11,273 nt of DNA from Nitrospinota bacterium (GTDB lineage Bacteria; Tectomicrobia; Entotheonellia; J063). The notes under the pieces were generated by a model, which saw only the letters and a list, made by a program, of their open reading frames with translations, did no database searches and was not told the origin of the DNA. Each line of letters begins with the position of its first letter. Position 1 is the first letter of the stretch. Positions 1 through 11,187 of this stretch are shown in pieces. The position numbers and the translations under genes were made by a program. The stretch spans positions 1 through 11,273 of the forward strand of contig RFHZ01000526.1 in assembly GCA_003696125.1 (NCBI GenBank). The letters run 5' to 3'.

Positions 1-1011
1 GAGCTCCCTTACCTGTACCCGGAGGAGTTCAAAGAGCATAAGCTCACCCCCCCCAAGGGTATCCTCCTCTATGGTCCCCCGGGCTGTGGGAAGACCCTGA
101 TCGCCAAGGCGGTGGCGAACAGCCTGGCCGAGAAGATCGAGAAGAAGACCGGCCAGAAGGCCAAGAGCTATTTCCTCAACGTCAAGGGCCCTGAACTCCT
201 GAACAAGTATGTGGGAGAGACGGAGCACAAGATCCGCGAAGTGTTCAAGAAGGCGAAGGAGAAGGCGCGGGAAGATACGCCGGTCATCGTCTTCTTTGAC
301 GAGATGGACTCCATCTTCCGCATGCGCGGGTCTGGCGTCTCTTCGGACATGGAAATCACGGTCGTAGCCCAGTTCCTCTCCGAAATCGATGGCCTGGAAG
401 CGTTACGGAACGTGATCGTCATCGGTGCCACCAACCGGCAGGATCTGATCGATCCGGCCGTGTTGCGACCGGGACGGCTCGATCTGAAGATCAAGATCGA
501 TCGCCCCAACAAAGAGGCGGCCAAGGATATCTTCTCCAAGTACCTCACCCCTGATCTCCCCATCCACCCGGAGGAGCTGGCCAAGGCGGATAACGACCCG
601 AAGAAAGCGGTCGATCTGCTCATCGATCGGATCACCGAGTATATGTACAGCACGGATGATCGGAATAAGTTCCTGGAGGTCACCTATGCCCGTGGAGAAC
701 GGGAGGTCTTCTACTTCAAGGATTTCATGAGCGGAGCGATGATCGAGAACATCGTGGCCCGGGCCAAGAAGATGGCCATCAAGCGCTTTATCGCCACCGG
801 TGAGAAGGGGATAAAGTTCGAGGATCTGCAGGAGGCGGTGGCCGGGGAGTTCAAAGAAAACGAAGATCTCCCCAACACCACCAATCCTGATGACTGGGCG
901 CGTATCTCTGGTCGCAAAGGCGAAAAGATCGTCAACGTGCGCACCCTCATCGGTGGAGAGCCGGCCAAGGCACGGAGCATCGAAGACATTCCGGGTGGCC
1001 AATATCTGTGA
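1..1011 (+). CDS. mpa: Proteasome-associated AAA+ ATPase Mpa/ARC (5' partial)
   Basis: This is the hexameric ring ATPase that binds Pup-tagged proteins, unfolds them with ATP and feeds them into the 20S proteasome. The frame is open from base 1, so only the last 336 codons are present; the N-terminal coiled coil and OB domains, and the true start, lie outside. Seen (numbering from the first codon): Walker A GPPGCGKT at 25-32, a pore-loop-like YVG at 70-72, Walker B VIVFFDE at 95-101, sensor-1 ATN ending at Asn145, and RPGRLD at 156-161 with the arginine-finger arginines. The protein ends in GQYL, the tail which in Mycobacterium Mpa docks in the alpha-ring pockets and opens the gate, so a working proteasome partner is expected. 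It is followed by dop after 96 nt in the same direction. Other AAA+ proteins (FtsH, Cdc48) are ruled out by this tail and by the neighbours. Confidence 0.96.
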
Positions 1012-1107
1012 TAAGGACGTCTCGCTCTCCCTATTGCCCGTACGGCCTGGAGAGGAGAGGACGCAGGGAAAGACGACGCACTGATGTAAAGGTGGATGGG
1101 AACGACC
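1012..1107 (+). other. mpa-dop intergenic spacer with imperfect hairpin
   Basis: This spacer holds no gene. CTCTCC (1025-1030) can pair with GGAGAG (1049-1054), with a further CGTC/GACG pairing outside it (1018-1021 with 1060-1063), around a self-complementary CCGTACGG at 1038-1045. No T-run follows, so it does not look like an intrinsic terminator; mpa and dop are probably co-transcribed. The purine stretch AAAGGTGG (1088-1095) is the likely dop ribosome binding site. Confidence 0.4.
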
Positions 1108-2592
1108 ATGGCGATTCAAAAGATTATGGGTAGCGAGACAGAATACGGGATCACGGTCCGTAACGATCCTGACTTTGATCCGATCTCCAAATCTCTCCTC
1201 CTGATCAACAGCTATCAGACCGATCCCCTGACTCGCTTCCTCTGGGATTATGACCAGGAGGACCCCCTGGTCGATGCACGCGGCTTTGAGCTTGATGAAG
1301 AGTTCGAGGTACCGGACCAGCAGGATAACATGAGCATCAACAAGATCCTGCCCAACGGGGCCCGTTACTACCTGGACCATGCCCATCCCGAGTTTTCCAC
1401 CCCGGAATGTTCCAATCCGCGTGACGTGGTCTGTTACGAGAAGGCAGGGGAGCGGATTCTCGATATCAGCCGTATCCGGGCCGAGCATGCCCTGCCGACA
1501 GAACAGCGCATCCTGATCTATAAGAATAACAGCGATCGCAAGGGGAACAGCTACGGCTGCCATGAGAACTACCTCATGGATCGCAGCACCCCTTTTAACC
1601 TGATCATCGAACACCTGATCCCCTTTCTGGTCACCCGCATCATCTTCTGCGGTTCGGGCAAGGTGGGCGTGGAGAACGAGACCGAGTTTGTCCCCTATCA
1701 GATCTCGCAACGGGCAGACTTCTTTGAGACCGAGATCGGTCTCGATACCATGGTCAAGCGTCCCATCATCAATACCCGCGATGAACCGCATGCCAACCGG
1801 GACAAGTACCGGCGTCTGCACGTCATCGTGGGGGACTCCAACATGTCCGAGTACACCATCTACCTGAAGATGGGGACGACCAGCATCGTCTTGAGCATGA
1901 TCGAGGACCAGTTCCTGGAGAAGAGCCTCGTCCTTCGCAACCCGGTCAAGGCGCTCAAAGCCATCTCACGGGATCTGACCTGCCGTCGGCCGGTCGAGCT
2001 GGACAACGGGCAGAAGATGACCCCCATAGACATCCAGCGTTTTTACCTGGAGCAGGCGCAGCGCTATTATGCCGACCGCCCCTGCGATCCGATCACCGCC
2101 GATATTCTGGGTAAATGGGCCTATGTCCTCGATGCCCTGGCCACCGATCCCTTCTCCCTCCGCCGGGAAGTGGACTGGGTCATCAAGTGGCACCTGATCA
2201 ACTCCTATATCGAGAAGCGGGGAGAGGCCTGGAACAGCTCCCGCGTGGCCATGATGGATCTCCAGTACCATGACATCCGGCCGGACAAAGGGTTATACTA
2301 TATCCTGCAGCGTTCCGGGGAGGTGGAGCGGATCGTGACCGATGAGGAGATCCGGGTGGCCCTGGAACATCCCCCCACCGATACACGGGCCTATTTCCGG
2401 GGGATGTGTTTACGCAAGTTCCGACAACATATCTTCGGTGTCAACTGGGATTCCCTCTCCTTCAACGTGGACGAGGGCCCGATCAAACGGGTGCTGATGG
2501 AGGAACCGGCCAAGGGGTCTAAGGCCCATGTGGAGGAGTTATTAGCCCGCTCTAATACGGTAGAAGAACTCCTGGTTAACCTGTCTCTTTAG
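1108..2592 (+). CDS. dop: Dop, deamidase of Pup / depupylase
   Basis: Dop belongs to the carboxylate-amine ligase-like (glutamine synthetase fold) family. It hydrolyses the isopeptide bond between Pup and lysine, and in species whose Pup ends in Gln it also deamidates that Gln. Seen: the N-terminal nucleotide/metal motif GSETEYG with Glu10; an insertion right after it (about residues 16-70, with WDYDQEDPLVDARGFEL) matching the Dop loop that PafA lacks; YLDHAHPE with Asp90, equivalent to the nucleophile-like Asp of Dop; then NSYGCHENYL, INTRDEPHA, the GDSN motif and DLQYHDIR. The C-terminal KAHVEELL is also typical of Dop. Length 494 residues, close to the usual 500. Start: ATG 1096 is in frame, but AAAGGTGG directly abuts it, whereas ATG 1108 has a usable spacing and gives the short N-terminus usual for the family; I chose 1108. 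It lies between mpa and pup, the classic place. Confidence 0.95.
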   Translation: MAIQKIMGSETEYGITVRNDPDFDPISKSLLLINSYQTDPLTRFLWDYDQEDPLVDARGFELDEEFEVPDQQDNMSINKILPNGARYYLDHAHPEFSTPECSNPRDVVCYEKAGERILDISRIRAEHALPTEQRILIYKNNSDRKGNSYGCHENYLMDRSTPFNLIIEHLIPFLVTRIIFCGSGKVGVENETEFVPYQISQRADFFETEIGLDTMVKRPIINTRDEPHANRDKYRRLHVIVGDSNMSEYTIYLKMGTTSIVLSMIEDQFLEKSLVLRNPVKALKAISRDLTCRRPVELDNGQKMTPIDIQRFYLEQAQRYYADRPCDPITADILGKWAYVLDALATDPFSLRREVDWVIKWHLINSYIEKRGEAWNSSRVAMMDLQYHDIRPDKGLYYILQRSGEVERIVTDEEIRVALEHPPTDTRAYFRGMCLRKFRQHIFGVNWDSLSFNVDEGPIKRVLMEEPAKGSKAHVEELLARSNTVEELLVNLSL

Positions 2593-2707
2593 TAAGGGAG
2601 GAGATGAGCACGAGCAAACAAGTGTCACAACCAACAAATCATTCGCATTTCCTATAGGCCGAGAGACGGCTCTGGCCTGGGCTCGGCGATGATGAAGGAG
2701 AGAAGGT
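2593..2707 (+). other. dop-pup spacer: mini-ORF and possible alternative stem-loops
   Basis: This 115-nt gap is long compared with the 3-5 nt gaps that follow. It contains a 17-codon ORF at 2604-2657 (MSTSKQVSQPTNHSHFL) placed just after AAGGGAGGAG. It also contains two mutually exclusive pairings: AGGCC (2656-2660) with GGCCT (2674-2678), extended by AGA/TCT, and GCCGAG (2658-2663) with CTCGGC (2682-2687). AAGGAG at 2695-2700 is the pup ribosome binding site, 7 nt before the ATG. The ORF could be a leader peptide or chance; the structure could tune Pup output relative to the other proteins. No convincing promoter was found. Confidence 0.35.
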
Positions 2708-3004
2708 ATGGTGTGGCAGGCATTCTTCAACAAGCAGCATCGATCAACGCACTCCTATACCGGTGTGACCCCGGATGAGTGGGCACAGCTTGTCCAGGTG
2801 GTGCAGGCGGCAGGGGAACAGCAGCGGATCAAGAAGGGGGAGACACCGAAACGGGAGGAGGAGAGAAGCGCCGCCAGCTCGGTGAAAGAGAGGGGGGAGA
2901 GCCTGAAAGAGGATGTCGATAAGCTGCTCGATGAAATCGATGAGGTCCTGGAAGAGAATGCCGAGGAATTTGTCAAAAACTATGTACAACGAGGAGGAGA
3001 GTAA
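2708..3004 (+). CDS. pup: Pup, prokaryotic ubiquitin-like protein, extended form ending in GGE
   Basis: Pup is a small, mostly disordered protein that PafA attaches through its C-terminal Glu to lysines of target proteins, marking them for the Mpa-proteasome. The C-terminal half (about residues 60-98) is canonical: LKEDVDKLLDEIDEVLEEN, the helix that pairs with the Mpa coiled coil, then AEEFVKNYVQRGGE. It ends in Gly-Gly-Glu98, not Gly-Gly-Gln, so it is encoded in the ligation-ready form. At 98 residues it is about half again as long as the usual 60-70. The extra N-terminus (about 1-40) has Trp, Phe and a VTPDEWAQLVQVVQ stretch that may form a helix; residues 42-65 are charged and likely disordered. 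The ATG at 2708 has a strong AAGGAG 7 nt upstream. GTG codons at 2798 and 2801 would give a normal-length Pup but have no good ribosome binding site. The last codons double as the prcB ribosome binding site. Confidence 0.93.
   Translation: MVWQAFFNKQHRSTHSYTGVTPDEWAQLVQVVQAAGEQQRIKKGETPKREEERSAASSVKERGESLKEDVDKLLDEIDEVLEENAEEFVKNYVQRGGE
2992..2999 (+). promoter_or_regulatory. prcB ribosome binding site inside the last pup codons
   Basis: AGGAGGAG spans the codons for Arg95-Gly96-Gly97-Glu98 of Pup. It lies 7 nt before the TTG at 3007 and 10 nt before the ATG at 3010. Ribosomes finishing pup should cover it, which suggests translational coupling of pup and prcB. A Gln codon at the end of Pup would change only the base after the purine core. 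Confidence 0.65.
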
Positions 3005-3009
3005 CCTTG

Positions 3010-3801
3010 ATGCTCAACCTGCGCTACCAGGGTTCCAGCTTTTTTGAATTACTCCAGACCGACTTTGCCCATCTGCTACCCCGGTACCAGGTCGAGCATG
3101 CTGCTTTACTCCAGAGGGAATTTCCTCTACCGCATGGCACGACCATTCTCGCCCTCAAGTATGCCGAGGGGGTCCTGCTCGCCGGTGATCGTCAGGCCAC
3201 AGAGGGGTTTCAGATCTCGGATCGTCGTATCGAGAAGGTGTACAAGGCGGATGAGTTCTCGGCCATTGCCATTGCCGGAGTCGCCGGTCCGGCCATCGAT
3301 ATGGTCAAGCTCTTTCAAACCGAACTGGAGCACTACGAGAAGATCGAAGGGGAACCGCTTGCGCTGGAAGGAAAGGCAAACAAGCTCGCCCAGATGATCA
3401 AGCAGAACTTCCCGGCCGCGCTGCATGGACTGGTGGTCATTCCGATCTTTGCCGGCTTTGATCGTAAAAAGGGGATAGGAAGGATTTATAAATACGATGT
3501 CACCGGGGGAAAGTACGAAGAGCGCAACTACTACGCTACCGGATCAGGAGGGAAAGATGCGCGGAGCACCCTGAAGAAGTTCTACCGGGAGAATCTTTCC
3601 CGTCAGGAGGCCATCCGCCTGGCGCTCGAAGCCCTACTCGATGCCGCGGAGGAGGATGTGGCTACCGGAGGTCCTGACCTCATCCGCGGCATCTATCCGA
3701 CCATCCAGACGGTCACCGCCCAGGGAATCAAGGAGGTATCGGTAGAGGAGATCAAGCCGATCTGTGAAGCGCTAATCCAGGAGAGAAAGGAAAAGGAATA
3801 G
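3010..3801 (+). CDS. prcB: Proteasome subunit beta PrcB (20S core, catalytic)
   Basis: This is the threonine protease of the 20S core; its heptameric rings form the inner chamber where unfolded proteins are cut. Seen (numbering from ATG 3010): a propeptide of 43 residues ending in LPHG, then Thr44, which becomes Thr1 after self-cleavage. The catalytic partners sit at the expected spacing: Asp60 in AGDR (Asp17 of the mature chain) and Lys76 in IEKVY (Lys33). SGGKDARSTLK and DAAEEDVATGGPDLIRGIYPT match the conserved beta-subunit blocks. Mature length is about 220 residues, normal for the family. An in-frame TTG at 3007 has slightly better spacing to the AGGAGGAG and would add one Met; the choice does not affect the mature enzyme. 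It starts 5 nt after pup and ends 4 nt before prcA. Confidence 0.97.
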   Translation: MLNLRYQGSSFFELLQTDFAHLLPRYQVEHAALLQREFPLPHGTTILALKYAEGVLLAGDRQATEGFQISDRRIEKVYKADEFSAIAIAGVAGPAIDMVKLFQTELEHYEKIEGEPLALEGKANKLAQMIKQNFPAALHGLVVIPIFAGFDRKKGIGRIYKYDVTGGKYEERNYYATGSGGKDARSTLKKFYRENLSRQEAIRLALEALLDAAEEDVATGGPDLIRGIYPTIQTVTAQGIKEVSVEEIKPICEALIQERKEKE

Positions 3802-3805
3802 AGCG

Positions 3806-4504
3806 ATGGCTATGCCCTTTTACGTTGCACCAGATCAGATGGTGCAAGACAAGGCGGAGTACGCCAAAAAAGGTATTGCAAAAGGGAAATCGATCGTGGT
3901 GCTGGAATATAAGGATGGGATCATCCTCACCGCGGAAAACCCGAGCGCATCCCTGAACAAGATCGCCGAGATCTATGACCGGATCGCCTTTGCCGGGGTC
4001 GGCAAGTACAGCGAGTTCGAGAACCTGCGCAAGGCAGGGGTCCGCTATGCCGACATCAAAGGCTATGCGTACAGCCGGGAGGATGTGACCACCAAATCCT
4101 TGGCCAACGCCTATTCTGAAGTCATCGGTAATATCTTTACGCGCGAGATCAAACCGCTCGAGGTCGAAATCCTGGTGACCGAGGTGGGGGAGGATCCCCA
4201 GCAGAACCAGATCTATCATATCTCCTTTGACGGGAGCATCAGCGATCACCACCGCTACGCGGTCATCGGTGGACAGGCGGAGAAGATCAGCTCCTACCTG
4301 GAACGGCACTACCAGGAGAACCTGGAACTCCCTGCCGCCCTCGCTCTCTGCAAAGCAGCTCTGGAAACGGTCCAGTCAGGAAACTCCCTGCCGGAAGAGA
4401 ACCTGGAGGTGGCCATCCTCGACCGCAACCGGGAGGGGAGAAAGTTCCGCCGGATTCCGACTTCAGAGATCGGTGAGCTGCTGCGCCAGGCCAGGAAGGG
4501 CTGA
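3806..4504 (+). CDS. prcA: Proteasome subunit alpha PrcA (20S core, gate)
   Basis: This is the non-catalytic subunit that forms the outer rings of the 20S core, gates the entry pore and binds the C-terminal tails of Mpa. Seen: the N-terminal gate peptide MAMPFYVAPDQ, matching the bacterial alpha-subunit start, followed by the alpha-type helix (KAEYAKKGIAKGKS), AENPSASLNKI, YDRIAFAGVGK and the GYAYSREDVT block. It has no processed N-terminal Thr, as expected for an alpha subunit. Length 232 residues. The start ATG 3806 has AAGGA 8 nt upstream; ATG 3812 is less well placed. Only 4 nt separate it from prcB and 3 nt from pafA, so the three are surely one transcript. Confidence 0.97.
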   Translation: MAMPFYVAPDQMVQDKAEYAKKGIAKGKSIVVLEYKDGIILTAENPSASLNKIAEIYDRIAFAGVGKYSEFENLRKAGVRYADIKGYAYSREDVTTKSLANAYSEVIGNIFTREIKPLEVEILVTEVGEDPQQNQIYHISFDGSISDHHRYAVIGGQAEKISSYLERHYQENLELPAALALCKAALETVQSGNSLPEENLEVAILDRNREGRKFRRIPTSEIGELLRQARKG

Positions 4505-4507
4505 ACG

Positions 4508-5899
4508 GTGAAGAGAAGAATCTATGGGCTGGAGAGCGAATACGGGATCATCTTTACCTCAGAAGGCCGCCGTACCCTCCCGGCAGAGAAGGCGGTCCGC
4601 TACCTGTTTGAAAAACTGATCACCACAGAGGGATTCCTCAACGTCTTCCTGGAAAACGGAGCCCGCTTCTATCTGGATACCGGGTGCCACCCGGAGTACG
4701 CCACCCCTGAGTGTGCCAGTCCGCTCGATGTGGTCATTTACGACAAGGCCGGGGAGAAGATCCTGGAGGACCTCCTCTACTACGCGGAACAGCGTCTCCG
4801 CGAAGAAGGGCTCTCCGGGAATCTGGCCATCTTCAAGAACAACACCGACTTTGTCGGCAATTCGTACGGCTGCCATGAGAACTACCTGGTGGAACGCACC
4901 ACCGATTTCTACGACCTGGCCGAACAACTGATCCCCTTCCTGGTGACCCGCCAGATCTATGCCGGCTCTGGCAAGTACTTCAAGACACGACGGGGCATCG
5001 ACTTCTACATCTCGCAGCGTGCCCAGCACATCCGCCAGGAGATCTCTGGAACCACGACCAATGAGCGGAGCATCATCAATACCCGTGATGAACCGCATGC
5101 GGATAAGGAGCGGTATCGTCGCCTCCACATCATCGTGGGGGATTCGAACATGTCCGAGTACACCACCTATCTCAAGATCGGAACCACGGCCCTGGTGCTG
5201 GAGATGGTGGAAGATGGGTTCATCCGCAAGGACTTTTCTCTCCGTAACCCGGTACGGGCTCTGAAGGATATCTCCCGGGATCTGACCTGCAAAAAGAAGC
5301 TCCAGCTCGAAGACGGGGGGAAGGCGAGTGCCCTGGAAATCCAGCGGGAGTACTACGAGCTGGCTCTCAAGTACTACTCCACCAAGCCGAAAGACCCGGA
5401 GGTGGAGGATATCCTGGAGAAGTGGGGTTACGTCCTGCACTGGCTGGATCAGGACCCGATGCACCTGCACCGGGAGATCGATTGGGTGATCAAGAAGTCG
5501 CTGATCGATAACTATTTGACCAGCAAGGCCGGCCACTTCCCTTCTGATGACAAGATCCTGATGATGGATCTCCAATATCACGATATCCGCTCCACCAGGG
5601 GACTCTACTATCTCATGGTGCGGAACAACCAGGTGGAACGCGTGCTCACTAATGCCCAGATCCAGCTCGCCACCGTCCAGCCTCCCCAGAATACCCGGGC
5701 CAAACTGCGGGGAGAGTTGATCAAGCTGGCCAAGCAGAAACGGATCCCCTACGACCTGGACTGGAACTATATCCGGCTTGGCTACCTGCTCAACCTTTGG
5801 GTCCGTTGCAACGATCCCTTCCAGGAAGAGGATGAAAAGGTGACCCTCCTCAAACGGCGTCTGGAAAAGACCAACTTCAAGTACGGGTACCTGCTTTAA
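4508..5899 (+). CDS. pafA: PafA, Pup-protein ligase
   Basis: PafA uses ATP to phosphorylate the C-terminal Glu of Pup and then joins it by an isopeptide bond to lysine side chains of substrates. It has the same fold as Dop but no Dop loop: the N-terminal GLESEYG (Glu9) runs directly into IIFTSEGRRTLPAE. Seen further: NGARFYLDTGCHPEYATPEC with Asp57, the catalytic base position in Mycobacterium PafA; NSYGCHENYL; INTRDEPHA; GDSNMSEYTTYLK; DLQYHDIRSTRGLYY; and a C-terminal domain ending in YGYLL. Length 463 residues, normal. The start is GTG at 4508 with AGGAAGGG 7 nt upstream, 3 nt after the prcA stop. Its central part is very like the Dop of this operon in protein and partly in DNA. All active-site residues that I can place are present. 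Confidence 0.97.
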   Translation: MKRRIYGLESEYGIIFTSEGRRTLPAEKAVRYLFEKLITTEGFLNVFLENGARFYLDTGCHPEYATPECASPLDVVIYDKAGEKILEDLLYYAEQRLREEGLSGNLAIFKNNTDFVGNSYGCHENYLVERTTDFYDLAEQLIPFLVTRQIYAGSGKYFKTRRGIDFYISQRAQHIRQEISGTTTNERSIINTRDEPHADKERYRRLHIIVGDSNMSEYTTYLKIGTTALVLEMVEDGFIRKDFSLRNPVRALKDISRDLTCKKKLQLEDGGKASALEIQREYYELALKYYSTKPKDPEVEDILEKWGYVLHWLDQDPMHLHREIDWVIKKSLIDNYLTSKAGHFPSDDKILMMDLQYHDIRSTRGLYYLMVRNNQVERVLTNAQIQLATVQPPQNTRAKLRGELIKLAKQKRIPYDLDWNYIRLGYLLNLWVRCNDPFQEEDEKVTLLKRRLEKTNFKYGYLL

Positions 5900-5967
5900 C
5901 CGGTAGTGACGGTGCTGCCACTTTTCATCCTTCTCCCCTGCCAGGGAGTGGTCAACAGGAGGGGAGG
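5900..5967 (+). promoter_or_regulatory. Leader before the radical SAM gene with possible ribosome-site-hiding stem
   Basis: The 68-nt gap ends in a strong ribosome binding site, AGGAGGGG (5957-5964). TTCTCCCCT at 5931-5939 is complementary over 9 positions (one G-U) to 5960-5968, which covers the ribosome site and the A of the ATG. An exclusive alternative is CTCCC (5933-5937) with GGGAG (5944-5948), which would free the site. A weak GGTAG/CTGCC stem (5902-5906 with 5915-5919) followed by ACTTTTC might act as a partial terminator after pafA. These are read by eye only; pyrimidine-purine complementarity of this length can arise by chance. Confidence 0.3.
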
Positions 5968-7200
5968 ATGAAGCCCCGTATCCTGCTGGTCAATCCGCCT
6001 GTCTACGACTTTACCGCGTACGACTTCTGGCTCCAGCCGTACGGGATGCTTCGTGTGGCTGGACAACTCCGCCAGGCAGCGCAACTCACCTATTTCAACT
6101 ACCTCACCCCGCTCCGCCGCAACGCCAGAGGCCAGGGGAAATTCCCGGCCACCATCATCCCCAAACCGGCCCTCTTTGCCGACATCCCCCGCTTCTTCCG
6201 GCGCTTCGGGAAACCACGCCAGGCCTTTCTCTCCTGCCTGCAAGAGCAACACTTCGATCTGGTCATGATCCAGACCGTCATGACCTACTGGTACCTGGGG
6301 GTCAGGGAGGTGATCGAGGATGTACGCAGGCTCCAGCCCTGGGCCCGGATCGTGCTGGGAGGCGTCTATGCCACCCTCTGCCCGGATCATGCCCGTACCC
6401 TGGGTGCCGACTTCGTCCAGGTGGGTCCGGTTTCGCCTGCCCTGTCCCACTTCCTGGGCATAGAGCTGACCGAAGGCTTACCCTTCTGGGAAGGAACAGG
6501 GAGTGAGGTGGGGGTGATCAAGCTGACCGAAGGATGCCCCTTCCGCTGCACCTACTGTGCCGTACCTCACCTCTACCCGCGCTTCGTGGCCCGTCCCACC
6601 AACGCCTGCCTGGAAGAACTCCGCTACCTGCTGCGATGCGGGGTACGCCATGTGGCCTTTTACGATGACGCGCTCCTCTTCCAGCCTGAGCAGGCCCTGA
6701 TCCCCTTTCTGGAAGGGGTCCTGCGCGAGGGACTGCGCGTTACCTTCCATACCCCGAACGCCTTGAATGCCCGCTTCCTGACACCGGAGATCGCCGCCCT
6801 GATGGTGCGGGCCGGGTGTCAATCCTTTTACCTCGGCTTTGAGAGCGGCTCGTACGCCTGGCAGCGCAAGACCGGGGGAAAGGTGTATGGGGAAGAGTTT
6901 CGACAGGCGGTACATACCCTCCGCTCTGCCGGTGCCCCTTCCATAACCGCCTATATCATCCTGGGCCACCCGGATAGCGAAGAGCAGGAAGTGGAGGCCT
7001 CTATAGAGATGTGCCGGCAGGAAGGGGTACGGGTCATGCTCTCCGAATTTGCCCCGGTCCCTGGTACCGTAGACGGGGAGAAGTGCCGGCAATGGGTGGA
7101 TCTGGCTGAGCCCTTAAATCATAACAAGACGGCCTTTACCATCCGGCGCCTGGGCTGGGAGCGGGTCAATGCCCTGAAAGCGTTGAGTAAAGGCCTCTGA
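5968..7200 (+). CDS. Radical SAM protein with N-terminal cobalamin-binding-like domain
   Basis: This is a radical SAM enzyme that would reductively cleave S-adenosylmethionine with a [4Fe-4S] cluster; its substrate is unknown. Seen: an N-terminal Rossmann-like B12-binding-type domain (about 1-165) with ILLVNPP at 5-11, the LVMIQTVMTYW strand-helix and VLGGVYATLCPDHA at 129-142, but without the DxHxxG motif of base-off cobalamin binders. The cluster motif is C190-xxx-C194-xx-C197 in TEGCPFRCTYC. It is followed by barrel elements including FYDDALLF (231-238), GFESGS and YIILGHPDSEE. The C-terminal SEFAPVPGT and EPLNHNKTAF resemble stretches common in B12-binding/Elp3-like radical SAM proteins. 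No second cluster motif (SPASM) is seen. Length 410 residues. The start ATG follows AGGAGG by 5 nt. It sits 68 nt downstream of pafA and may be co-transcribed with it, but a proteasome role is only inferred from position. Confidence 0.85.
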   Translation: MKPRILLVNPPVYDFTAYDFWLQPYGMLRVAGQLRQAAQLTYFNYLTPLRRNARGQGKFPATIIPKPALFADIPRFFRRFGKPRQAFLSCLQEQHFDLVMIQTVMTYWYLGVREVIEDVRRLQPWARIVLGGVYATLCPDHARTLGADFVQVGPVSPALSHFLGIELTEGLPFWEGTGSEVGVIKLTEGCPFRCTYCAVPHLYPRFVARPTNACLEELRYLLRCGVRHVAFYDDALLFQPEQALIPFLEGVLREGLRVTFHTPNALNARFLTPEIAALMVRAGCQSFYLGFESGSYAWQRKTGGKVYGEEFRQAVHTLRSAGAPSITAYIILGHPDSEEQEVEASIEMCRQEGVRVMLSEFAPVPGTVDGEKCRQWVDLAEPLNHNKTAFTIRRLGWERVNALKALSKGL

Positions 7201-7206
7201 GTCCTC

Positions 7207-8304
7207 CTATTCCCCCAGCAGGTTACAGTCTGCCGCGTACCATCCTACCTGCACCGGATCGTTCTCCTGCAATCCCAACTGCTGCACGAGGCGACTGGAG
7301 GTGCGGCTGAGGAGAGTGGTGCGTTCGCCCCAGGCCACGGTCAGCTCGGTGATGTCTCCCAGGTATACCCTGGCCGTGATGCGCCCGCTAAAGAGATTCT
7401 CTCCCGGCCACCCTGCCCCTGGAGGCAGGACCTGCACCGCATCCGGCCGGATAGAAAAGCTGATGGGTTGCCCAGGAACCAGGGAAGGGAGCGGCGGGCA
7501 GATCACCTGGAGTCCCTCCTCGATTTCTATGTGCATCCCCCGCTCGTCCATCCCGGTGATCCGGCCACTAAAGATATTGGAAGCACCCATGAAATCGGCC
7601 ACAAACCTGGTGCGAGGGGTCTGAAAGATCTCCTCTGGGGTCCCGATCTGCTCCCACCTCCCGTGCCGCATCACGGCAATGCGATCAGACATGCTCAGCG
7701 CCTCTTCCTGGTCATGCGTCACATAGATGAAGGTGATGTTCACCTCCTGCTGAATGCGGCGCAATTCTACCTGCATCGCCTTGCGTAGCTTGCGGTCCAG
7801 CGCACCCAGCGGTTCATCCAGCAGCAAGACCTGGGGACGCAGAACCAGGGCTCGGGCCAGGGCCACCCGCTGCTGCTGTCCTCCACTCAGTTGAGCGGGA
7901 CGCCGGGACTCAAACCCGCCCAGATGCACCAGGTCTAGCACCTCCTTGACCCGCCGGCTGATCTCTGCTTCCGGCACCCGGCGCGATTTCAGGCGGAGTC
8001 CAAAGGCGATGTTCTCCTTGACCGTCAGATGAGGGAAAAGGGCATAGTTCTGGAACACGATGTTGGAGCTCCGCTCGTACGGGGGACGATCGTTGACCAC
8101 CTCCCCGTTGATCAGGATTTCACCACTGTCCGGCGTTTCCAATCCCCCGATCAGCCGCAGGGTGGTGGTCTTGCCACAGCCTGAGGGACCGAGCAGGGAG
8201 AAGAACTCTCCCTCCCGGATACGCAGGCTGACATCGTTTACCGCCAGCACCTCGCCGAACCGCTTGCTCACATGCCGCAACTCTACACCGATTCTCTCTC
8301 CCAT
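7207..8304 (-). CDS. potA: ABC transporter ATPase PotA (polyamine importer family)
   Basis: This ATP-binding subunit drives polyamine uptake from the cytoplasmic side of the membrane. Seen (365 residues): Walker A GPSGCGKTT at 39-47, Q-loop Gln85 in IVFQNYALFP, signature LSGGQ at 139-143, Walker B VLLLDE at 159-164, D-loop GALD, and switch His197 in IYVTHDQEEAL. The C-terminal third (from about residue 240) fits the TOBE-type regulatory domain of this family. The ATG at 8304 overlaps the potC stop by one base (TGATG), with GGAGGG just upstream; an in-frame GTG sits immediately before it. The open frame runs further back to 8568, but that part is potC in another frame. It is the last gene of the operon. 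Related importers for iron or sulfate share these motifs; the polyamine assignment comes from PotD and the permeases. Confidence 0.93.
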   Translation of the reverse strand: MGERIGVELRHVSKRFGEVLAVNDVSLRIREGEFFSLLGPSGCGKTTTLRLIGGLETPDSGEILINGEVVNDRPPYERSSNIVFQNYALFPHLTVKENIAFGLRLKSRRVPEAEISRRVKEVLDLVHLGGFESRRPAQLSGGQQQRVALARALVLRPQVLLLDEPLGALDRKLRKAMQVELRRIQQEVNITFIYVTHDQEEALSMSDRIAVMRHGRWEQIGTPEEIFQTPRTRFVADFMGASNIFSGRITGMDERGMHIEIEEGLQVICPPLPSLVPGQPISFSIRPDAVQVLPPGAGWPGENLFSGRITARVYLGDITELTVAWGERTTLLSRTSSRLVQQLGLQENDPVQVGWYAADCNLLGE

Positions 8305-9083
8305 CACACCCTCCGCTGTTCCAGAATGGTGCCGATGATGACCAGCACCAGCGGGACCACAACGATGAGTGTTCCCAGGGCATTGACCATGGGAGACACA
8401 CCGAGACGGATCATGGAATAGACCCGCAGGGGCAGGGTAGACGAGCCGACACCGGCCACAAAGAAGGTGATGACAAAGTCGTTGAACGACCAGGGAAAGG
8501 CGAGCAGGGCGGCGGCCAGGATCCCCGGTTTCAGAAGGGGTAAGGTGACCTTCCACAGGGTCGTCCACTCATCCGCTCCCAGGTCCATGGCCGCCTCCTC
8601 CAGGGTTCGATCGATCCGCTGCATCCGGGCGATGATGACCAGGGTGGTCAGGGGGATGGAAAAGGAGATGTGGGCCAGCAGGATGGTCAGGACCCCGAGG
8701 CGCATGTTCAGGAAGACGAAGAAGAGGAGAAGGGAGATGCCGATGACGATGGAGGGCATGATCAGGGGGATGTAGAGGATCCCCTGGAACAGGGACTTGC
8801 CCCGAAACGAGGAGCGGTACAGGGTCAGGGCGGTCAGGGTCCCGATGGCGGTGGAGATGAGGACCGAGGGGATGGCAACCATGAGGCTGATCTTCAGCGC
8901 ATCCTGAATCTTCTGGTTCTGAAACACCTCCTGGTACCACTTCAGGGTAAACCCTTCCCAGCGGATACTGTACTCGGAGGGGGTAAAGGAGAAGGCGATC
9001 AGCACCAGGAGGGGCGCGTACATGAAGAGGTAGACACAGAAGGAGAGAACCGGTAACAGGCGGGGTGCCCTCTGTCCTCTCAC
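8304..9083 (-). CDS. potC: ABC transporter permease PotC
   Basis: This is the second membrane subunit of the importer. Seen: 259 residues with about six hydrophobic segments (first at about 9-32, then 65-88, 100-125, 130-152, 186-210 and 235-254). The cytoplasmic EAA loop is at about 162-182 (EEAAMDLGADEW then VTLP), the coupling helix that contacts the ATPase. The FPWSFNDFVITFF stretch after it is typical of PotC/PotI permeases. The start is GTG at 9083, overlapping the potB stop as GTGA (4 nt), with AGGAG 8-9 nt upstream, which points to translational coupling. The stop overlaps potA by one base. Confidence 0.93.
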   Translation of the reverse strand: MRGQRAPRLLPVLSFCVYLFMYAPLLVLIAFSFTPSEYSIRWEGFTLKWYQEVFQNQKIQDALKISLMVAIPSVLISTAIGTLTALTLYRSSFRGKSLFQGILYIPLIMPSIVIGISLLLFFVFLNMRLGVLTILLAHISFSIPLTTLVIIARMQRIDRTLEEAAMDLGADEWTTLWKVTLPLLKPGILAAALLAFPWSFNDFVITFFVAGVGSSTLPLRVYSMIRLGVSPMVNALGTLIVVVPLVLVIIGTILEQRRV

Positions 9084-9976
9084 CGTGCCTGCTCCTGAAA
9101 GGCTTCCTTCCCCCCACCGACCCGCATGTACAGGAAGAGGAGGAGGAGAATGAGGGCCAGCAGGAGGAGGGAGAAGGCGGAGCCGAGCGGCCAGTGCCGC
9201 AGCCCGGTAAACTTCAGGGTGATGAACTTCCCGATCATCATCGCCTTGGCTCCCCCCAGCAGCTCAGGTACCAGAAACTCGCCTATGGCCGGGACAAAGA
9301 CCAGCACCGAGCCGCTGAGCATCCCCCCTCTGGTCAACGGTAAGGTCACCTTGAAGAAGCGCTCGGCCGGGGTGGCCCCCAGATCGGCCGCCGCCTCCAG
9401 CACCGAGCGATCCAGTCGCTCCAGCGAGGCGTAGAGGGGAAGGATCATGAAGGGGAGGTAGGTGTAGACCAGTCCTACCAGCACGGCAAACTCGTTGTGC
9501 AGCAGGGGTAAGGGTTCCCGGATGAGATGAAGCCTGGTCAGGAAGTTGTTGACCAGCCCATGGTCGGCCAGCAGGGTCATCCAGGAGTAGATCCGCACCA
9601 GGTAGCTGGTCCAGAAGGGGAGGATGACCAGGAAGAGGAGGAGGGATTTGTGCCGGCCACCGTAGAAGGCGATCCAGTACGCCACCACATAGCCCCCGAT
9701 CAGGCAGAAGAGACTGGTCAGCAGGGCCAGGCGAAAGGAGCGGAAGAAGATCTTGAGGAAGAGGGGATCCAGGATCTGCCGGTAGTTCTCCAGGGTGAAC
9801 TCGTACCTGATCGTTCCCCAGGGACCCCGCGTCAGGAAGCTATAGTAGACCACGATGAGCATCGGGATCAGGGTGAAGACCAGCAGCCAGAAGGCGGCCG
9901 GACCCAGCAGGACCCCCAGGCCACAGGTCGGGTGACGCCGGAAAAAACGCAGGATACGTCGCCTCAGCTTGCGCAT
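9080..9976 (-). CDS. potB: ABC transporter permease PotB
   Basis: This is the first membrane subunit of the importer, pairing with PotC. Seen: 298 residues, a basic N-terminus (MRKLRRRILRFFRR), a first membrane segment at about 19-48, further segments near 81-105, 112-134, 162-183, 218-240 and 264-284, and an EAA loop at about 194-213 (EAAADLGATPAE then VTLP). VPAIGEFLVPELLGG after the loop is characteristic of PotB/PotH. The ATG 9976 is preceded by GGAG at 4 nt and lies 14 nt after the potD stop. The stop overlaps potC by 4 nt. Confidence 0.93.
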   Translation of the reverse strand: MRKLRRRILRFFRRHPTCGLGVLLGPAAFWLLVFTLIPMLIVVYYSFLTRGPWGTIRYEFTLENYRQILDPLFLKIFFRSFRLALLTSLFCLIGGYVVAYWIAFYGGRHKSLLLFLVILPFWTSYLVRIYSWMTLLADHGLVNNFLTRLHLIREPLPLLHNEFAVLVGLVYTYLPFMILPLYASLERLDRSVLEAAADLGATPAERFFKVTLPLTRGGMLSGSVLVFVPAIGEFLVPELLGGAKAMMIGKFITLKFTGLRHWPLGSAFSLLLLALILLLLFLYMRVGGGKEAFQEQAR

Positions 9977-9990
9977 GCTTCTCCGTCTTC

Positions 9991-11187
9991 CTATGAACCT
10001 AACAGGCGAGTCCAGATCTCATCGTAAATGGGGAGGATCTCATCCGGGATGACCGCCAGGAACTCGATGCGGGCCAGCTCCTTTTCTGTCGGGTAGATGG
10101 CCGGATTCTTGGCGATCTTCGGATCGACGTATCTCTCCACCGCCACCTGGTTGGGGGTGGCATAGCCGGAAGCCTTCGAGTTGTTTGCCGCCACCCTGGG
10201 TCTGAGCATGTAGTTGATAAAGACCTCGGCCGTGAACTTGTGGGGTGCATCCTTGGGGATGGCCATGTTGTCAAACCAGCCCGTTCCCCCTTCCTTGGGC
10301 AGGATCCACTCCACGGCCGGGTTCTCCCAGTGCGCCTTGACGATCTCCCCGTTCCAGCCATGGGCCACGATGATGTCCTCGGTGATCAGGGCTTTCTTCT
10401 CCTCTGCCCCCGGATAGAAGGCCTTCACGTGCGGTTTGATCTTCATGAGGAGTTCTCCCGCTTCGCGCAACTCCTTCTCGCTGTGCGTGTTGACCGAATA
10501 GCCCAGGTATTCGAGGGCCGTGGCCATCACCTCTTCCCGTTCATCGGTAAAGCCGAGTTTGCCGGAGTAGCGTTGGGGGCCACTCACGAACATGAGGGCC
10601 CAGCTCCCCACATGGGGGTCCCCTTTGGTATACTTGGTGTTATGGGCCATGGCGGTCATGCCCCAGGCGTAGGGGACCGAATAGGTGTTGCCCGGATCAA
10701 AGGAGGTGTTAAGGAACTTGGGCATGATGTTCTTCATGTTAGGGATGTGCTCATGGTTGATGGGAGCGAGGAGCCCCTGCGCGATATGGATGGGCAGGAA
10801 GTTGTGGGTGGGAAAGACAACGTCGTACGGGGCCCCACCGGCCTGGAGTTTGGCCAGCAACTGCTCGTTGCCGGGGAAGGTATCATAGGTCACCTTGACC
10901 CCGAACTCCTTTTCAAAGTCGGGAATGGTATCCGGATGGATGTAGTCTTCCCAGTTGTAAACGAATAGCTGTCCCCCCTCTTTCTTGATCTTCTCCAACA
11001 CCTCAGGAGACGGGCTTTGCGCGGCAAAGGCCTGGCGGTGTTGACTCAAGATCTCGGAGAGGAGCGTTGTCGAGATCCCCAGCGCGACTCCCCGCTGCAT
11101 GAACTCCCGCCGGGTGAGGCGTTCCTCCCAGAGTGCTTCTACCCAGGTGTCGAGCCAGCGTCGATGTCTTCTCTCACGGATTGGCAT
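9991..11187 (-). CDS. potD: Polyamine-binding protein PotD, Tat-exported
   Basis: This is the substrate-binding protein that delivers spermidine or putrescine to PotBC. Seen (398 residues): a twin-arginine motif TRREFMQ with Arg26-Arg27, a moderately hydrophobic stretch (33-47) and a possible signal peptidase site after AFA (53-55). There is no lipobox Cys, so the product is probably soluble in the periplasm. The mature part begins with QLFVYNWEDYIHPDTIPDFE, typical of the family. Residues matching the polyamine-contacting aromatic and acidic residues of E. coli PotD are visible: Trp278 in GWNG, and Trp304 and Asp306 in GWFDN. The C-terminal LRPRVAANN and GYATPN blocks also fit. The ATG at 11187 follows GGGAGGGAGGG, and a stop TAG in frame at 11202-11200 bounds it. 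Which polyamine is bound cannot be told from sequence alone. Confidence 0.92.
   Translation of the reverse strand: MPIRERRHRRWLDTWVEALWEERLTRREFMQRGVALGISTTLLSEILSQHRQAFAAQSPSPEVLEKIKKEGGQLFVYNWEDYIHPDTIPDFEKEFGVKVTYDTFPGNEQLLAKLQAGGAPYDVVFPTHNFLPIHIAQGLLAPINHEHIPNMKNIMPKFLNTSFDPGNTYSVPYAWGMTAMAHNTKYTKGDPHVGSWALMFVSGPQRYSGKLGFTDEREEVMATALEYLGYSVNTHSEKELREAGELLMKIKPHVKAFYPGAEEKKALITEDIIVAHGWNGEIVKAHWENPAVEWILPKEGGTGWFDNMAIPKDAPHKFTAEVFINYMLRPRVAANNSKASGYATPNQVAVERYVDPKIAKNPAIYPTEKELARIEFLAVIPDEILPIYDEIWTRLLGS

Follow-up and report, generated by a model that had tools for sequence, protein, structure and literature searches.

The window, an 11,273-nucleotide stretch that comprises one entire contig, contains a pupylation gene cluster. 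The assembly of origin is fragmented, with 990 contigs totalling 4.18 Mb, a completeness of 94.8%, and a contamination of 8%. On the forward strand, the gene order is mpa (3′ part), dop, pup, prcB, prcA, and pafA (Table 1). The Mpa sequence has the pore loop KYVGE and the C-terminus GGQYL. The PafA sequence scores 542.9 bits, slightly below the NCBI cut-off of 551.3 bits. A B12-binding radical SAM gene lies downstream of pafA (5968-7200, forward strand), followed on the reverse strand (7207-11187) by an ABC importer set of an ATPase, two permeases, and a solute-binding protein, which resembles polyamine importers. A GC-rich hairpin is possible near the pup ribosome-binding site in the dop-pup gap (2593-2707), and is no better than those of shuffled sequences (z -0.75).

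Table 1. Features of the pupylation cluster and of the pup gene in the window.
Feature	Position	Strand	Evidence
Mpa, 3′ part (contig edge removes 5′ end)	1-1011	+	TIGR03689, E 2.7e-131
Dop	1096-2592	+	TIGR03688, E 1.1e-173
Ribosome-binding site AAGGAG, 7 nt before ATG 2708	2695-2700	+	Same motif at starts of L003, L005, L006, L007
pup, 98 aa, ending RGGE	2708-3004	+	PF05639, E 3.4e-22; TIGR03687, E 2.9e-17
N-terminal extension, residues 1-33	2708-2806	+	Outside Pfam coverage; alignment with solved Pup chains begins no earlier than profile position 26; relatives
Outer extension, residues 1-24 (Trp3, Phe6, Phe7)	2708-2779	+	Length and sequence variable in relatives; low pLDDT
Conserved hydrophobic patch WAQLVQVVQ, residues 25-33	2780-2806	+	W..[IL]V, hydrophobic positions, pN/pS
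GTG codons 31/32, proposed alternative starts	2798-2803	+	Ribosome-binding site absent
AAGEQ junction, residues 34-38, equivalent of canonical start MA..EQ/QK	2807-2821	+	Non-extended Myxococcota Pups begin here
Core helix of Pup with the GGE end, residues 59-98	2882-3001	+	pN/pS 0.05 in relatives; AF2 helix
PrcB, 20S proteasome beta subunit	3007-3801	+	TIGR03690, E 6.1e-94
PrcA, 20S proteasome alpha subunit	3806-4504	+	TIGR03691, E 2.2e-93
PafA, Pup ligase	4508-5899	+	TIGR03686, E 5.5e-163

A further pupylation cluster occurs in this assembly (G000:C895:1-16318, L176) and encodes Mpa (2226-3446), Dop (3460-4959), Pup (5013-5195), and PafA (5210-6589) with no prcA or prcB nearby. Its Mpa is divergent, carrying an insertion and no GQYL end, and its 63-residue Pup has no extension. 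This cluster may represent a genuine additional system or may reflect the contamination of the bin.

An earlier note on this DNA, made from the letters alone, had described the 98-residue product as a Pup with a long N-terminal extension, and this description holds. The reading frame encodes a genuine Pup that is lengthened by approximately 33 residues before the canonical Pup start. It exceeds the cut-offs of both family models, with scores of 79.6 bits for PF05639 (cut-off 27) and 62.4 bits for TIGR03687 (cut-off 41.45). The Pfam match spans residues 38-98 only and the TIGR03687 match residues 68-98. The protein ends in Gly-Gly-Glu, one of the two C-termini expected of Pup (Gly-Gly-Glu or Gly-Gly-Gln), and dop, pafA, and the proteasome genes adjoin its gene, as is also expected. 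Its length lies outside the 60-70 residues stated for Pup, which is a description of known Pups and no functional criterion.

The extension is shared by relatives of the same class. All four of the Entotheonellia-type Pups compared carry at least 14 in-frame codons before the canonical start, corresponding to extensions of 14-19 residues. These read MTRQYTFATSPAWAAIVTC before the junction AEGGQQ (L003), MMEQGHRWAGIVTC before SEGGQQ (L005), MIVKQTLGVTDRWHGIVTC before AEGGQQ (L006), and MIVKQTPGDTDRWYGIVTC before AEGGQQ (L007), while the window Pup ends its extension with TPDEWAQLVQVVQ before AAGEQQ. The motif W..[IL]V directly precedes the junction in 5/5 class members (shuffle p 0.003-0.026 each), of which the near-identical L006 and L007 amount to one. 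Conservation thus begins at about codon 25, rather than only from about codon 31, the pattern that the earlier note would have taken as refutation.

These comparisons bear directly on where translation begins. Codons 31 and 32 are GTG and are placed correctly for a Pup of canonical length, such that a start at 2798 or 2801 would leave the extension untranslated and yield a protein of 67-68 residues. However, no Shine-Dalgarno sequence of at least 4 nt was found before either codon, whereas AAGGAG precedes ATG 2708, where the earlier note had placed a strong ribosome site, and also the ATG of all four relatives. In addition, the relatives carry Cys and no start codon immediately before the AEGG/SEGG junction, and selection upstream of it acts at the protein level. 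We rejected the GTG starts on the basis of the missing ribosome-binding site, the starts of the relatives, and this conservation; an untranslated extension is highly improbable. The long form is the predicted gene product given its ribosome-binding site and conservation. Interpretation of the extension as a signal peptide or lipoprotein was also rejected on inspection, as the hydrophobic stretch is too short.

To define the wider distribution of the extension, we combined a name-based search with a Pfam search of 282 genomes from one phylum, whose named members mostly carry Myxococcota labels; a Pup scored above the cut-off in 54 of the 282. Altogether, 57 Pups of this group were read, with L143 left out. 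Extra residues, numbering 14-33, are present in 52 of the 57, and the remaining five (L137, L159, L160, L170, L174) start with MA at the canonical place. The canonical part is constant at 65-70 residues throughout, in Entotheonellia as in Myxococcota. For Myxococcota, the ATG with the best ribosome-binding site was chosen as the start, a choice on which the hydrophobic pattern near the junction depends little. A ribosome-binding site stands at the chosen ATG in 52/57 cases, a count that is partly produced by construction and that refers to a set also including five Entotheonellia.

Pups of several small phyla (L204, L214, L217, L220, L223, L224, L225, L150) are extended as well and carry hydrophobic residues close to the junction, with the hydrophobic register shifted in some. 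The examined Pups of Actinomycetota, Nitrospirota, Methylomirabilota/Rokubacteria, and Acidobacteriota have the canonical start. Wherever the contig reaches, extended Pups are accompanied by a full Mpa-Dop-PrcB-PrcA-PafA set, and the Mpa motor is therefore available to act on them. The extension is not private to one lineage, but is widespread in proteasome-bearing pupylation clusters outside Actinomycetota.

Several further observations were made in these genomes. Two related genomes, G390 and G656 (L227, L229), encode a second, extended Pup (L223, L224), and the 10 kb around it contain no gene for Mpa, Dop, PafA, or the proteasome. Window-like Mpa, Dop, PafA, and PrcA/B are absent from the stretches of up to 14 kb that include the Methylomirabilota/Rokubacteria pup (L233-L238, L054, L060, L078), which seems unlinked from its enzymes. 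Most Mpas of the clade (L177, L178, L181, L183-L200, and others) carry an N-terminal peptide, [KR][KR][GS]F[VM]RD[VT]M[RK][RK][IL]S, located before the coiled coil and approximately 107-128 residues ahead of the PPN motif. This peptide was not detected in L239-L241 and L176.

The conserved part of the extension is the hydrophobic patch at residues 25-33 of the window Pup. Among the residues singled out in the earlier note, Trp25 and L28/V29/V31/V32 are conserved in kind, whereas Trp3, Phe6, and Phe7 are not conserved in relatives. In Myxococcota, large hydrophobic residues (FILMVWY) account for 0.69 of sequences at position -2, 0.92 at -3, and 0.67 at -5 before the AA[EGD] junction, compared with 0.27 after shuffling of these extensions. 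They are rare at -7 to -12. The eight-residue Myxococcota profile is not individually significant against single Entotheonellia extensions (p 0.07-0.48), whereas its fixed-register sum over five Entotheonellia sequences is (p < 0.0002). Since significance is reached only by the sum, the extensions of the two groups may be homologous or convergent.

Comparison of synonymous and non-synonymous changes in 13 related pairs gave a pN/pS of 0.53 when the extension was taken as a whole; the linker has a value of 0.31 and the core one of 0.05. Along the extension, the ratio climbs from 0.23 at -1 to -6 through 0.60 at -7 to -12 to 0.98 at -13 to -18; these are pooled Nei-Gojobori counts that are small and include pairs with a shared member, so the gradient is sound and the individual values are approximate. 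Purifying selection thus acts on the patch as protein, and constraint over all 40 N-terminal residues is not supported. The free evolution of the outer part would fit a view of the extension as tolerated, weakly selected drift, in which the ancestral start moved upstream and the sequence before the old start was kept for translation or solubility. The variation in length from 14 to 33 residues, the several losses, and the 19/57 extended Pups that retain a start codon where the old start lay point the same way. We nevertheless judge drift improbable, given the clear protein-level selection on the patch and its 92% hydrophobic occupancy at -3.

Within the N-terminal half, conservation is highest at the junction itself, with A35 and Q38 of the window Pup nearly invariant in alignment A1. 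As it coincides with the canonical beginning of Pup, the extension might be read as a propeptide that is cleaved near AA[EGD] to release a canonical Pup. Against this, AA is preceded by different residues (M, S, R, G, C, Q), no stretch resembling a signal peptide is present, and no protease was identified in this analysis. Such processing is very unlikely.

Two trees bear on how the extension arose. The Dop tree unites the extended Pups in a single group (38 rows, SH-aLRT 92), and four changes in total are required, including three losses within Myxococcota. The PrcB+PrcA tree leaves the deeper branching without resolution and needs six changes. One genome, G636 (L232), was scored as extended after its sister G366 and not from its own Pup. 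Methylomirabilota/Rokubacteria fall outside the placement because no window-like Mpa, Dop, PafA, or proteasome gene lies near their pup. A single early gain followed by several losses is the simplest reading, though not a proven one.

Structural prediction favors a patch over a fold. An AF2 model of the window Pup contains the known helical core (54-94) at high confidence and a helix at residues 22-36 with a pLDDT of only ~60, while a model of one extended Myxococcota Pup has no helix in the extension. Pro or Gly occupies -4 in 23/51 sequences, which, like the second model, speaks against a conserved helix. We rejected an N-terminal helix as a shared feature after these two models, so the "helical-looking" character attributed to this region is weak. 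None of the solved Pup chains aligned covers the extension. These models point to a conserved hydrophobic patch rather than an ordered domain, and the extension may be disordered despite that patch. Of the ordered or sticky N-terminus suggested previously, the sticky patch fits the data and the ordered helix does not, as a conserved feature. A sticky patch would be compatible with both consequences proposed in the earlier note, a changed start of unfolding and a separate partner, and the data favor neither.

Pup docks on the coiled coils of Mpa with its N-terminus toward the pore. Because of this orientation, the patch would enter the Mpa channel before the canonical leader. In the window Pup, the outer part of the leader is polar and variable, and the conserved hydrophobic patch sits right before the canonical start; the Mpa pore loops would grip the large side chains of that patch. 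A docked pupylated substrate would be caught and threaded more often and released less often. We give an even chance to this proposal that the patch is a stronger initiation leader helping Mpa to catch or hold the end that is threaded first.

Several lines of evidence bear on this leader role. In Mycobacterium tuberculosis, the first 15 residues of Pup lie in the Mpa channel, ringed by pore loops (PMC8755798), and the Pup N-terminus is threaded first (PMC3511204). The aromatic pore loop KYVGE is kept in the Mpa of organisms with extended Pups, which counts in favor of grip. The constant canonical part behind the extension, the fixed hydrophobic positions, the selection on the patch, W..[IL]V in all class members, and the accompanying full gene set count in favor as well. 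We infer from this that the patch would contact the pore and thereby strengthen capture and holding. Counting against grip, the five Myxococcota Pups without an extension retain a full Mpa-proteasome cluster, which implies that the extension is dispensable; under the leader proposal, its repeated loss indicates that it would modulate the system rather than be essential. In ClpXP, grip is most important beside the folded domain (PMC6677533), whereas the Pup N-terminus is far from such a place. In addition, when extended and non-extended genomes were compared, the pore loop, coiled-coil spacing, and N-terminal peptide of Mpa did not vary with the extension.

Conservation of AA[EGD]..Q at fixed positions seems to go beyond what a generic grip would require. 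The main rival explanation is that the patch is a short motif that binds another protein, with the long polar N-terminus merely displaying it. The fixed register at -2/-3/-5 followed by AA[EGD]..Q resembles a recognition motif, and the conserved N-terminal peptide of most clade Mpas could serve extra interactions. Conversely, residue class rather than identity is conserved across phyla, with the Myxococcota profile scoring single Entotheonellia Pups weakly, and no partner was found in this analysis. The Mpa peptide is kept where Pup has lost its extension and goes undetected in G366, G636, and G528 of the extended group. We regard this binding role as possible but doubtful; the partner could be a receptor, a chaperone, a membrane-linked protein, or a surface of the proteasome or of Dop/PafA.

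If the patch acts as an initiation leader, these proteins would represent a second architectural class of Pup outside Actinomycetota, found in Entotheonellia, Myxococcota, and several small phyla. In this class, a hydrophobic engagement element would be added before the canonical start, and Mpa would start on a dedicated grip sequence instead of a plain disordered tail. We propose this tentatively, at slightly under even confidence. The initial capture of a substrate by the motor of a proteasome is a question of general interest in protein degradation. As a tag, Pup carries the initiation site in its own N-terminus, and the detailed work consulted concerns the short polar actinobacterial form. 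The conserved patch suggests a different start of protein destruction outside the well-studied actinobacteria. Natural Pups with and without the patch, all beside an intact Mpa-20S cluster, make the leader role directly testable.

Statements on Pup length and composition that derive from Actinobacteria fail elsewhere. According to one review, every pup gene encodes 60-70 residues (PMC3511204). Iyer et al. 2008 (PMC2588565) report Pup in deltaproteobacteria, planctomycetes, nitrospirae, and verrucomicrobia and give a size range of 50-90 residues that would allow extensions; a search of that text by selected terms found no mention of an N-terminal extension. Their deltaproteobacterial case, Plesiocystis, lacks linked proteasome genes, whereas those of the present clusters are linked. 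The open literature searched does not describe an N-terminal extension of Pup or pupylation in Myxococcota or Entotheonella. UBact (Lehmann et al. 2017) reportedly comprises Pup homologues of Gram-negative bacteria, and resembles the extended Pups in being a Pup-like modifier outside Actinobacteria. With the Pup of M. tuberculosis and other Actinomycetota (PF05639), the window shares the C-terminal core D..LLDEID.VLEENAE.FV..YVQ.GG[EQ] and the gene order dop-pup-prcB-prcA, and the alignment of the extended-Pup profile with solved Pup chains begins near the N-terminus of those chains. The M. tuberculosis-type Pup has 60-70 residues and a polar Gly/Asp-rich N-terminus, whereas the window Pup, as the earlier note had remarked of its unlike N-terminus, carries 33 more residues and a hydrophobic patch.
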